64,000 nucleotides of DNA, from assembly GCF_027107535.1 (NCBI RefSeq), contig NZ_CP114283.1, positions 7,874,001 to 7,938,000 of the forward strand, given 5' to 3'. Positions within the stretch are counted from its first letter, which is position 1; each line of letters begins with the position of its first letter. The position numbers were made by a program, and so were the translations under genes. Source of the DNA: Streptomyces aurantiacus (GTDB lineage Bacteria; Actinomycetota; Actinomycetes; Streptomycetales; Streptomycetaceae). This document shows positions 18,879 to 26,543 of this stretch, in pieces. The notes under the pieces are model-generated. The model had not been told where the DNA came from, did not search any database, and saw only the letters and a program-made list of their open reading frames with translations.

Positions 18879-21101
18879 ATGCCGACTACACCCGCGCCCA
18901 CCGAGGAAGCCCACAAGACCGAGCCCACCAGGAGCCGTTCCACCGTACGCGCGCTGCTGCGCCTGTGGCCGTACGTGAGACCCGTGCGCGGACGGCTGCT
19001 CACGGCGGCCGTCGTCGCGGTCGTCGCCTCCTGTACGGGGCTGGTCATCCCGCTCGTCCTGAAGTGGATCGTGGACGGCCCGGTGGCCGACCGGAGCACC
19101 GGCGGCGTGTGGCTCGGGGCGCTGTACCTGCTGCTGCTCGGGATCGTGGAGGCCTTGCTCTTCGGGCTGCGGCGCTGGCTGGTGGCCCGGCCGCTGGCCG
19201 GGGTCGAGGCGGCGATGCGGGCGGACCTGTACCGGCATCTGCAGCGGCTGCCCATCGCGTTCCACGACCGCTGGGCCTCCGGGCAGTTGCTGTCGCGGGG
19301 CACGACCGACCTGATGCTGCTGCGGATGTTCCTCGCGTTCCCGCTGACGTTCCTGCTGGTCAACTCGGTGACGATTCTCGTGGGCGTCCTCATCATGCTG
19401 GCCCAGGAGTGGACGCTGGGACTCGTGCTGCTCGCGCCCGCGCTGCCCGTGATGGTCGTCTGCTGGCTCTTCGAGAAGCGGTACTCGCAGGTGGCCCGGC
19501 GGGCCCAGGACCAGGTCGGCGACCTGACGACGCTCGTCGAGGAGAGCGTGCTCGGCATCCGGATCATCAAGGGGTTCGGGCGCCATCGCAGTCAGGCCCT
19601 CGCCTTCCGCGAGCTCTCCCGGACGCTGCGCGGTACGGAACTCGCCAAGGCGCGGCTGCTCGCGGGCATCTTCGCCGCCATCACGACCCTGCCCGAACTC
19701 GCCGTCGGCGCGGCCCTCGTGCTCGGGACGGTGCAGGTGGCCGACGGTGACCTGTCGGCCGGCACGCTGGTCGCGTTCCTGTCCACGGCGCTCGCCCTGC
19801 GGTGGCCCGTCGAGTCGATCGGTTTCCTGCTGGCGATGAGCCAGGAAGCGGCGACAGCCACGGAGCGCTACTTCGAGGTGATGGACGCGAAGCCGGAGTC
19901 CGAGGCACCGCCGCGGTCCGAGGCACCGCCGCGGTCCGGCGCGGAGCCGTCGTCCGGCGGCTTGCGGCCGCCGGGAGCTGAGCCGCCGACCGGCGCGGAC
20001 CAGAAGCGGGACACCGAGCCGCAGACCGGCCGGGAGCCGGACATCGAGCCGCCGACCGGTATGCACCGGGAGCCGGACGCCGAGCCGTCGACCGGCGCGA
20101 ACCCGGAGTCCGGCGCGAAGCCGCAGCCCAGCAAGAACCCGGAGTCCGGCGCAAAGTCGGCGTCCGGCGCTGGGTCGGCGTCCGGCGCGAAGCCCGACCT
20201 CGGGGCGGCCGTCGTGCCCCGGGCCGCCGTGCACACCGGTGCGCCGCTCGCCTCCGCCTCGCGCACCGGCGCCTCACCGACGGCCGAGGGCGTCGGCGAC
20301 GGCGACGGCGACGGCGACGGCGACGGCGACGGGGCCACCGGATCCGGCGGGCTCCGCTTTCACGGGGTCCGGTTCCGTTACCCCGACGCGCCCCCGGACA
20401 GCGTTCCCGTCCTCGACGGGATCGACCTGCACATCCGGCCGGGCGAGACCATGGCCCTGGTGGGCGGGACGGGTTCCGGGAAGACGACCCTCACCGCGCT
20501 CGTCCCCCGGCTGCACGAGGTCACGGCGGGCCGGATCACCCTGGACGGCATGGACATCACCGCGATGCCCAGGCAGTCCCTGCGCGCCCTCGTGGCCGTC
20601 GCCTTCGAAGAGCCCACGCTCTTCTCCGCCGGGGTCGGCGACAACGTTCTGATGGGCGCCCCGGACACCGCGGGCGAGGCCGACCTGCACCGCGCCCTGG
20701 CCGTCGCCCAGGCGGACTTCGCCCACGCGCTCCCCCACGGGACGGACACCCAGGTCGGCGAGCAGGGCCTCAGCCTCTCCGGCGGCCAGCGCCAGCGGCT
20801 CGCCCTGGCGAGAGCTGTCGTCGGCAACCCCCGCTTCCTCGTCCTGGACGATCCGCTCTCCGCCCTGGACGTCCACACGGAGGCCCTCGTCGAAGCGGCC
20901 CTGCGCCGCGTCCTGGCCGGGACGACCGCCCTGGTCGTGGCCCACCGCCCGTCCACGGTGCTGCTCGCCGACCGCGTGGCCCTGCTCTCCGGTGGCCGCG
21001 TCACAGCCGTCGGCACCCATCACGAACTGCTGCGTACGAGCGCGGAGTACGCCTGGCTGATGTCGGGAAGCACGGAGACCACCGAGAGGGAGGCGCGATG
21101 A
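18879..21101 (+). CDS. ABC exporter half, degenerate-site subunit, with long low-complexity linker
   Basis: 740 residues, about 140 more than usual for a type IV half-exporter. Six membrane segments occupy residues ~35-300. The ATPase domain starts near 491. Walker A is GGTGSGKTT, the signature is canonical LSGGQ, but Walker B reads LVLDDPLSALD, so the catalytic Glu is Asp, and the Q-loop reads AFEEPTLF with Glu for Gln. This is the pattern of the non-catalytic half of a heterodimer. Residues 337-490 are a Pro/Ser/Glu/Gly-rich linker with many SGA, EPP and TGA repeats and a GDGDGDG run. It overlaps the next gene by ATGA. Substrate unknown; probably a drug, lipid or peptide. Confidence 0.9.
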   Translation: MPTTPAPTEEAHKTEPTRSRSTVRALLRLWPYVRPVRGRLLTAAVVAVVASCTGLVIPLVLKWIVDGPVADRSTGGVWLGALYLLLLGIVEALLFGLRRWLVARPLAGVEAAMRADLYRHLQRLPIAFHDRWASGQLLSRGTTDLMLLRMFLAFPLTFLLVNSVTILVGVLIMLAQEWTLGLVLLAPALPVMVVCWLFEKRYSQVARRAQDQVGDLTTLVEESVLGIRIIKGFGRHRSQALAFRELSRTLRGTELAKARLLAGIFAAITTLPELAVGAALVLGTVQVADGDLSAGTLVAFLSTALALRWPVESIGFLLAMSQEAATATERYFEVMDAKPESEAPPRSEAPPRSGAEPSSGGLRPPGAEPPTGADQKRDTEPQTGREPDIEPPTGMHREPDAEPSTGANPESGAKPQPSKNPESGAKSASGAGSASGAKPDLGAAVVPRAAVHTGAPLASASRTGASPTAEGVGDGDGDGDGDGDGATGSGGLRFHGVRFRYPDAPPDSVPVLDGIDLHIRPGETMALVGGTGSGKTTLTALVPRLHEVTAGRITLDGMDITAMPRQSLRALVAVAFEEPTLFSAGVGDNVLMGAPDTAGEADLHRALAVAQADFAHALPHGTDTQVGEQGLSLSGGQRQRLALARAVVGNPRFLVLDDPLSALDVHTEALVEAALRRVLAGTTALVVAHRPSTVLLADRVALLSGGRVTAVGTHHELLRTSAEYAWLMSGSTETTEREAR
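20295..20330 (+). repeat. Hexamer microsatellite (GGCGAC)6 inside the exporter linker
   Basis: Six uninterrupted GGCGAC units encode a (Gly-Asp) run at the end of the linker, right before the ATPase domain. In-frame hexamer repeats can change copy number without breaking the protein. Confidence 0.9.
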
Positions 21102-24753: not shown

Positions 24754-26543
24754 GCACGCAGTTGCCGGTGGCCGAGCCGGCCGGCGTGCGCGCGGCCGCC
24801 GCCCGGCTGATCCGTGCGGACGGCCGCGCCTTCGCCGTCGTGCTCGTCCTGAACGCGCTGGCGGCCGCGGCCGGTCTGGTCGGTCCGTGGCTGCTCGGCC
24901 GCATCGTCGACGAGGTCCGGGCCGGTGCCGGTGTCGCCGTCGTGGACCGGCTGGCGCTCGTCATCCTGGTGTGCGCGGTGGCCCAGCTGCTGCTGGCGCG
25001 GGCCGCCCGGCTCGTGGGGCACCGCTTCGGCGAGCGGACGCTGGCGCGGGTGCGTGAGGAGTTCGTGGACCGGACGCTGGCGCTGCCCGCCTCCGTGGTG
25101 GAGCGGGCGGGCACCGGCGACCTCACGGCCCGTGGCACCGCCGACGTCGCCGCGGTGGGTACGACCCTGCGTGACGCCGGACCCGAGCTGCTGGTCTCCT
25201 CGGTGCAGGCGCTGTTCCTCGTCGGCGCGGTCTTCGTGCTCGATCCGCTGCTGGGCTGCTGCGCGGTGCTCGCCCAGGCCGGTATCTGGTTCTCCCTGCG
25301 GTGGTATCTGCGCCGGGCCCGCGCCGGTTACCTCGCCGAGGGCGCCGCCACCTCGGAGGTCGCCGAGATCGTCTCGGCCACCGCCTCCGGCGCGCGCACG
25401 GTCGAGGCCTTCGGTCTGCAGCGCCGGCGCGTCGCCGAGAGCCGGGACGCCCTGGAGACGTCCCGCCGCACCCGCATGCACACGCTGTACCTGCGGTCCG
25501 TGTTCTTCCTGACCGTGGAGGTCTCGTACGTCCTTCCCGTGGCCGTCGTGCTGATGGTCGGCGGGGCCCTGCACGCGCGGGGCGCGATGAGTCTGGGTGC
25601 GGTGGTCGCGGCGGCCCTGTACCTGCGCCAGCTGGAGTCGCCGCTCGACACGGTCCTGATGCGGGTGGAGCAACTGCAGAGCAGCGGCGCCTCGTTCGCG
25701 CGGGTGGAGGGCCTCGGCCGGGCCCCGCGGGCCCTGCCGTCGGGTTCTCCCGCCCCGGTGGACGACCGGATCGACATGCGGCGGGTGCGCTACGCGTACG
25801 ACCGCGGCGGCGAGGTGCTGCGCGGGGTCGACCTGACCGTGCGGCCCGGGGAGCGGCTGGCCGTCGTCGGACCCTCGGGCGCCGGGAAGACGACTCTGAG
25901 CCGCCTGCTCGCGGGCATCGACGCACCGCGCTCCGGCACGGTGACGGTCGGCGGAGTGCCGATCGCCGACCTGGATCCGGAGCAGCTGCGGCGGCAGGTC
26001 GTCCTCGTCACGCAGGAGCACCACGTGTTCCTGGGTACGGTCCGGGACAATCTGCTGATCGCCGAACCGACCGCCGGTGACGCCGAGTTGTGGGCGGCTC
26101 TGGTGGCGGTCGGCGCCGACGACTGGGTCCGGGAACTGCCGGACGGGCTCGACACGGAGCTGGGCCGCGGTGGCCCGCACCCGGTGGCGGGCGGCGCCCG
26201 GCCGGGAGAGGCGCCGGTGACGGACGGCTCCCGCGCGCAGCAACTGGCGCTGGCCCGGGTCGTACTGGCCGACCCGCACACCCTGATCCTCGACGAGGCC
26301 ACCGCGCTCCTCGACCCGGCGACCGCACGTCACACGGAGCGCGCGCTGGCCGCCGTGCTCGAAGGACGCACCGTCATCGCCATCGCGCACCGCCTGCACA
26401 CCGCGCACGACGCGGACCGGGTGGCCGTGATGGAGGACGGCCGTCTGACCGAGCTGGGCACCCACGACGCCCTCGTGGCGGCCGGCGGTGCGTACGCGTC
26501 CCTCTGGCACTCGTGGCACGGCGAGCGGACGGGCCCTTCCTGA
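24750..26543 (+). CDS. ABC exporter half of second pair, catalytic subunit lacking the signature motif
   Basis: 597 residues from ATG 24750, overlapping the previous stop by ATGA. Walker A GPSGAGKTT, Q-loop LVTQEHHVF, Walker B LILDEATALLD and the H-loop IAIAHRLHT are intact. The LSGGQ signature is absent: the position is taken by a Gly/Pro-rich stretch ending VTDGSRAQQLALAR. In the heterodimer the good Walker motifs of this chain pair with the good signature of the 585-residue chain, so one site is complete and the other is dead. It ends the four-gene run. Substrate unknown; secreted proteases lie directly downstream. Confidence 0.92.
   Translation: MSTQLPVAEPAGVRAAAARLIRADGRAFAVVLVLNALAAAAGLVGPWLLGRIVDEVRAGAGVAVVDRLALVILVCAVAQLLLARAARLVGHRFGERTLARVREEFVDRTLALPASVVERAGTGDLTARGTADVAAVGTTLRDAGPELLVSSVQALFLVGAVFVLDPLLGCCAVLAQAGIWFSLRWYLRRARAGYLAEGAATSEVAEIVSATASGARTVEAFGLQRRRVAESRDALETSRRTRMHTLYLRSVFFLTVEVSYVLPVAVVLMVGGALHARGAMSLGAVVAAALYLRQLESPLDTVLMRVEQLQSSGASFARVEGLGRAPRALPSGSPAPVDDRIDMRRVRYAYDRGGEVLRGVDLTVRPGERLAVVGPSGAGKTTLSRLLAGIDAPRSGTVTVGGVPIADLDPEQLRRQVVLVTQEHHVFLGTVRDNLLIAEPTAGDAELWAALVAVGADDWVRELPDGLDTELGRGGPHPVAGGARPGEAPVTDGSRAQQLALARVVLADPHTLILDEATALLDPATARHTERALAAVLEGRTVIAIAHRLHTAHDADRVAVMEDGRLTELGTHDALVAAGGAYASLWHSWHGERTGPS

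Follow-up and report, generated by a model that had tools for sequence, protein, structure and literature searches.

Two adjoining, putatively heterodimeric ABC exporters in Streptomyces aurantiacus, one probably from an actinomycete family with a single working ATP site

Gene layout and domain composition

Within a 64,000-nucleotide stretch of the Streptomyces aurantiacus genome (contig NZ_CP114283.1, positions 7,874,001 to 7,938,000 of the forward strand; hereafter the window, in whose numbering window coordinates are given) we analyzed four genes, T1 to T4, that encode ATP-binding cassette (ABC) half-exporters. All four lie on the + strand and each overlaps the next, through ATGA, GTGA and ATGA, a chain of overlaps that had been proposed in a sequence-only reading of this DNA and that the open reading frame coordinates confirm. 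T1 (18879..21101) encodes 740 amino acids (aa), T2 (21098..22999) 633 aa, T3 (22996..24753, with a GTG start) 585 aa and T4 (24750..26543) 597 aa. In each protein an ABC_membrane domain is followed by an ABC_tran domain, with both Pfam cut-offs passed in 4/4 proteins, and it is this combination in one chain, together with the fold of solved exporters, that places all four among the type I (exporter-fold) ABC half-transporters. The exporter fold is retained in the single-chain models.

Motifs of T3 and T4

In the nucleotide-binding domain (NBD) of T3 five elements are absent: the A-loop, the Walker A Lys, the Q-loop Gln, the Walker B Asp and the H-loop His. There is no A-loop strand-turn-strand in the region at 24034..24096 (+), the dead P-loop reads GARPAESA (24115..24138, +), the Q-loop has become DNEADLF and the H-loop TSTSP, while in AVEP, the former Walker B, the Asp is replaced by Val and the catalytic-position Glu is present. 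The T3 signature LSGGQ (24415..24429, +), with its Ser at residue 475, is intact, as is the D-loop within the Walker B/D-loop stretch AVEPTSALD (24484..24510, +). T4, for its part, has all the ATP motifs that act in cis, including a canonical Walker A, GPSGAGKT (25869..25892, +), whose Lys is residue 380, the Q-loop Gln, LDEA and the H-loop His, and it has no signature: an insertion and VTDGSRAQQ stand at 26172..26243 (+) in place of LSGGQRQR. The inserted segment, some 13 aa long and directly preceding the lost signature, is found among 41 T4 rows only in the window and its closest relative (locus L038). This insertion and the loss of the T3 A-loop are details added to the earlier motif reading, which had described the motif states of all four chains correctly.

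One complete composite ATP site, with the changes spread over both chains, is found in T3/T4 and also in T1/T2, and the motif alignment bears out the earlier view that T3/T4 is by far the more degenerate pair. The live site of T3/T4 would be built from the A-loop, Walker A, Q-loop, Walker B and H-loop of T4 and the LSGGQ and D-loop of T3, acting in trans. At the other site the asymmetry is of the extreme, Pdr5 type, the Walker A Lys, the H-loop His and the partner signature all having been lost, although the pair is not itself a Pdr5-type PDR transporter, since the transmembrane domain (TMD) precedes the NBD and there are two half-size chains.

Conservation of the motif pattern in relatives

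Is this partition of motifs peculiar to one genome? A T3 relative with 98% identity was found in Streptomyces, and for the wider comparison we aligned the ATPase domains of 81 T3-type and 82 T4-type chains from the window and 81 loci (L038-L077, L103, L104 and L243-L282 without L280). L049 gave two chains of each type; L062, where T3 is in two pieces and T4 was not found, gave neither, and the T3 of L264 was left out, although the ATPase domain of the latter, which is cut by a contig end, is still T3-type. None of the 81 T3 chains has an A-loop aromatic, a Walker A Lys, a Gln at the aligned Q-loop position or an H-loop His; the Walker B Asp remains in 22 and the catalytic-position Glu in 62. 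The T3 motifs that act in trans are invariant (signature Ser, second signature Gly and D-loop Asp, each 81/81). Conversely, the A-loop Tyr, both Gly, the Lys, the Ser/Thr, the Gln, the Asp, the Glu and the His are each present in 82/82 T4 chains (the H-loop of the L261 chain was an 'A' in the first alignment and is counted as His in the final one), whereas the signature Ser is found in 12/82, the second signature Gly in 4/82 and the D-loop Asp in 71/82. Where the D-loop Asp is missing, in 11 T4 chains, the sequence is T-A-[ED]-A-G, as in a pair at the siderophore locus of the same genome as the window. Read from these sequences, each of T3 and T4 retains the motifs that would serve the live site and has lost those that would serve the dead one. 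The variability of the motif columns, ranked against random column sets, is for the most part distributed in the same way: in T3 the P-loop stands at the 96th percentile and the Q-loop at the 74th, the signature at the 0th and the D-loop at the 1st, and in T4 the P-loop is at the 0th and the signature at the 80th.

Several observations weigh against a history of simple drift at the dead site, or against the counts being taken at face value. The former H-loop of T3 (mostly T/S-S-P) ranks at the 14th percentile and its Walker B at the 30th, as does the D-loop of T4, and the conserved former H-loop/Walker B part of T3 may have a structural role. Decay of T3 is also uneven, as the different frequencies of its catalytic-position Glu and Walker B Asp illustrate, and the second signature Gly persists in the four T4 chains counted above. 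A second clade of paralogues has a Gln two residues before the aligned Q-loop position, which makes the figure of 0/81 for Gln dependent on the alignment. Finally, the relatives were found by their similarity to T3/T4 and share common descent, and the counts are not independent trials.

Could T3 instead be the product of a pseudogene or a decaying gene, or could sequencing errors have produced its losses, as the sequence-only reading had allowed for the motif sites? In favor of decay is L062, where T3 is in two pieces about 1.8 kb apart (about 7676-10642), T4 was not found in the fetched stretch and T1/T2 upstream are open; in that genome the T3/T4 pair is presumably dispensable. In the family as a whole the frames are open, the signature and D-loop are invariant and the same losses run through the 81 aligned T3 sequences. 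Because the same pattern recurs in relatives with a readable ATPase domain, the losses in T3/T4 are due neither to chance nor to sequencing error, and we rejected this explanation, to which we give almost no credence. The asymmetry of T3/T4, as these sequences indicate, is ancient and reflects neither local decay nor an error of sequencing.

The distribution of the pattern was followed in several collections. The genome of the window itself has 25 ABC_membrane matches and, after de-duplication by hand, 25 exporter ATPase domains; the Walker A Lys is missing in 3/25 of these NBDs and an S-[GA]-G signature in 3 others, and these six chains are the window's T3/T4 pair and two paralogue pairs. The T3/T4 design is also found in Actinomyces denticolens (L103), in Saccharothrix luteola (L104) and in 39 further loci of the class and order samples. 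L103 and L104 are the only members of the family among the 80 loci listed from a scan of genome contigs, a listing outside which genomes near that of the window possibly fall, and the other loci shown with non-standard signatures are of the Asp-for-Glu type. A T4 profile finds matches at E <= 1e-110 in 172/246 genomes of the class, a figure that includes proteins of the T1/T2 type. When 16 loci from 12 genomes were read, the 3 at 1e-163 to 1e-183 had the T3/T4 pattern and the 13 at 1e-112 to 1e-134 had ordinary motifs; at E <= 1e-160, with rows counted by eye, matches are found in 119/246 genomes of the class, 22 of them in the same genus. A T4 search of a plasmid collection matched 2928 records, of which the best 40 are generically annotated except for one HcuC, and was not used.

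Pairing of the four chains and independence of the two pairs

Gene overlap was scored in 75 of the 82 sources (L065, L067, L069, L071, L072, L073 and L077 were left out). A 4-bp stop/start overlap joins T1 to T2 in 17/17 loci and T3 to T4 in 60/73; T2 and T3 overlap in 2/13, namely the window and L038, and in other loci are up to 1 kb apart. Of 20 window-type loci (L038-L057), 12 have T1/T2 on the strand of T3/T4 and upstream of them, 3 (L045, L046 and L050) have T1/T2 nearby but on the opposite strand, and 5 have no T1/T2 within about 8 kb. Presence varies as well: T2 is present in 53/61 genomes of the genus (E <= 1e-150) and window-type T3 (at least 56% identity, rows read by hand) in 22 of the same 61, with one broken copy in addition. 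As the placement and presence of T1/T2 vary and the T2-T3 overlap is so rarely kept, we conclude that T1/T2 and T3/T4 are separate modules that merely adjoin here.

The earlier proposal of two heterodimers, first with second and third with fourth, is supported by this linkage of the genes, and not by a dimer model. In principle, T3 might pair with T2 and T4 with T1, or all four chains might form one complex. Motif logic would permit this, with LSGGQ in T1 and T3 and intact cis motifs in T2 and T4, and all four genes do overlap in the window; coupling of T3 to T4 is nevertheless kept at loci with T1/T2 on the other strand or with none in the vicinity, and coupling of T2 to T3 is not. We therefore regard cross-pairing as very improbable.

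Trees were built from 28 T3 and 28 T4 chains with other exporters, for membrane and ATPase domains separately. T3-type chains form one group (support 0.991 for membrane domains and 0.728 for ATPase domains), as do T4-type chains (0.997 and 0.893), each group including three rows of the matching type from the genome of the window, and T1 and T2 fall outside both. The two groups are not sisters, nor do they make up a group of their own, and in the ATPase tree the smallest mixed group containing them both also takes in T1. The origin of T3/T4 from T1/T2 by local duplication was set aside because T3/T4-type chains group apart, with T1/T2 outside. On this sequence evidence T3/T4 stands apart as a family whose ancient asymmetry is its own, and we found no support for the idea that the four genes represent two exporters on a shared message that differ in their stage of decay and act on linked substrates: the pairs are separable, T3-type and T4-type chains have tree groups of their own and the T2-T3 overlap is seldom kept. 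In L049 (6124-13546) two pairs follow one another head-to-tail, one a window-type T3/T4 and the other from the second paralogue clade; this tandem of four chains of the half-dead family may have arisen by duplication.

T1/T2, an ordinary asymmetric exporter

T1 is the degenerate-site chain of its pair, with GGTGSGKT, FEEP in the Q-loop (Gln to Glu), an intact LSGGQ, LDDP (Glu to Asp, giving a Walker B Asp-Asp) and the H-loop His, and T2 is the consensus-site chain, with GTTGAGKS, the Q-loop Gln, ISAGQ (22670-22684), LDEA and His. These states are unchanged in 17/17 T1 and 17/17 window-type T2 sequences. Among solved structures, the best listed match of T2 to a half-size chain is to 6raf_A (319 bits), from the TmrAB series (the sister entry 6rah is titled TmrAB). 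A similar change is found in a mycobacterial exporter: MsRv1273c carries Asp497 at its degenerate site, and in the consensus chain, MsRv1272c, the X-signature loop ends in ...GAIS (PMC12038006), which implies that the signature of MsRv1272c begins I-S, like the ISAGQ of T2. To that extent MsRv1273c/72c and T1/T2 share the same type of change, an Asp in one chain and an I-S signature in the other. The genome of the window has three more pairs that combine a chain with Asp for Glu and a chain with an S-A-G signature, and the weaker T4-profile matches read elsewhere in the class are mostly of this type. By these sequence comparisons, T1/T2 is an ordinary asymmetric exporter of the TmrAB/MsRv1273c-72c kind, and its asymmetry is a common one. 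The linker between the membrane and ATPase domains of T1 (19887..20333, +) is of low complexity, with 18/36/66-bp and 6-bp tandem repeats, and at 740 aa T1 compares with 595-686 aa in 15/16 relatives and 791 aa in one.

Neighboring genes, paralogues and direction of transport

Downstream of T4, at 26728-30955, lie two adjacent genes for M4 (thermolysin-like) metallopeptidases that by Pfam both carry FTP propeptides, the first having a P domain as well, and upstream of T1 is a gene that we take to be glgX. A functional link to the peptidases was set aside because the paralogue L064 adjoins a PNGaseA gene and other T3/T4 loci vary, with no shared partner; in the second paralogue clade a PNGaseA-like gene lies near both scanned loci (L064, 10702-12471; L066, 10774-12426). 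A scan of 18500-27000 gave 0 promoters and 0 terminators, a result that is uninformative for DNA of such high G+C content. Elsewhere in the window, at 38001-40000, G+C is down to 0.644 and GC skew to -0.315, lowest among its 2-kb steps.

Siderophore genes accompany one clade of the paralogues. The pair L074, from the same genome as the window, adjoins formyltransferase, ornithine/lysine hydroxylase and iron-siderophore-type binding-protein genes (Pfam), a coelichelin-like locus. Similar neighbors were found at L104 in Saccharothrix (hydroxylase and binding protein), L257 (a nonribosomal peptide synthetase condensation domain), L266 (binding protein) and L278 (formyltransferase), so that the Pfam scan of flanking genes picked by eye gave a siderophore-type neighbor in 5/5 loci. 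The motif type of this clade is shared by 11 loci (L074-L077, L104, L257, L258, L266, L267, L277 and L278). At one of them, L076, a gene list read by eye had no evident siderophore gene beside the pair, which counts against the association. This clade probably exports hydroxamate siderophores. CchGI, the ABC pair of the S. coelicolor coelichelin locus, is the presumed coelichelin exporter (PMC12161575), and its likeness to the clade is drawn from the kinds of genes at the locus. A siderophore biosynthesis locus surrounds only this clade and not the window's T3/T4, whose flanks are T1/T2 and the M4 peptidases.

What, then, would T3/T4 transport, and in which direction? We expect that it would export a small metabolite. 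IrtA and YbtPQ are siderophore transporters that have the exporter fold and act as importers. Both are among the closest folds to T4, which tells against our expectation; T3/T4 might, like IrtAB/YbtPQ, import a siderophore or other metabolite. We consider this improbable: the nearest-fold lists include many exporters as well, the siderophore locus of the genome already holds a binding-protein gene (Pfam) and, by eye, the permease- and ATPase-like genes of a usual uptake system, and the presumed role of CchGI is in export.

A single-nucleotide transport cycle?

What is directly observed is how the motifs are divided between the chains, that this division is conserved, which genes are linked in pairs and that the single-chain models keep the fold. 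Beyond this, we think it likely that T1-T4 are two separate heterodimeric type I exporters and that T3/T4 represents an actinomycete family of obligate heterodimers with a single working ATP site. T4 would bind and hydrolyze ATP using the LSGGQ and D-loop of T3. At the dead interface, where the P-loop region of T3 would face the former signature of T4, the groups that hold ATP are lost, and this second site is probably free of nucleotide in the cell. If so, T3 and T4 would close on one ATP per cycle, with the dead half held by contact between protein surfaces acting as a hinge. That the pair completes its transport cycle on a single nucleotide, with the empty site a purely proteinaceous hinge, is a proposal to which we give about even chances.

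TM287/288, TmrAB, BmrCD and MsRv1273c/72c resemble both T1/T2 and T3/T4 in fold, in being TMD-NBD half-transporters and in having one consensus and one degenerate composite site, and chains of all of them are among the full-length fold matches of the T3 model. In TM287/288, TmrAB and BmrCD, Walker A is kept and ATP is bound at the weak site. The occluded state of MsRv1273c/72c likewise has ATP at both sites (PMC12038006). Unlike these exporters, T3/T4 has a degenerate half without the Walker A Lys, the A-loop, the aligned Q-loop Gln and the H-loop His. The corynebacterial TetAB was rejected as a characterized relative because its models fall far below the cut-off, and among titles and the beginnings of abstracts no paper on a T3/T4-type family was recognized.

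Closer in the extent of its changes is yeast Pdr5, in which all the motifs of one site are altered in a mirrored way, with Cys for Lys, Asn for Glu and Tyr for His and with the partner signature changed to LNVEQ (PMC7756269), and in which the deviant site nonetheless has ATP bound in cryo-EM (PMC8421411). The likeness to T3/T4 extends to the Walker A Lys, the H-loop and the partner signature, all changed at one site. By this precedent the T3 site could still retain a nucleotide by contacts of a non-standard kind and work as an ATP sensor or as glue, and the catalytic-position Glu in 62/81 T3 chains and the conserved replacement of the H-loop would fit such a role. Pdr5, however, is a full-length fungal PDR/ABCG-type transporter of reverse topology (NBD before TMD), whereas T3/T4 are bacterial TMD-NBD half-transporters in which T3 has, in addition, neither an A-loop strand nor a Gly-rich loop; the P-loop columns of T3 rank with the most variable ones in its domain, and the T4 signature that would face the T3 site is lost too. 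A nucleotide retained at the T3 site is thus an unlikely alternative to the empty site that we propose.

The T3/T4 family constitutes a natural experiment on the need for a second ATP, in bacteria that can be grown and engineered. A nucleotide-free second site would run counter to the idea that degenerate sites are maintained as hinges with ATP bound; if the proposal is true, heterodimeric exporters would not in general need ATP as glue at the degenerate site, and a transporter could be retained while the nucleotide pocket of its lost site drifts. The family has a mark in its sequence, the absence of the Walker A Lys in one chain together with a Q-A-Q-Q-type stretch that replaces the signature in its neighbor, and this mark applies to proteins that, among the 120 matches listed, bear only generic ABC-transporter names.

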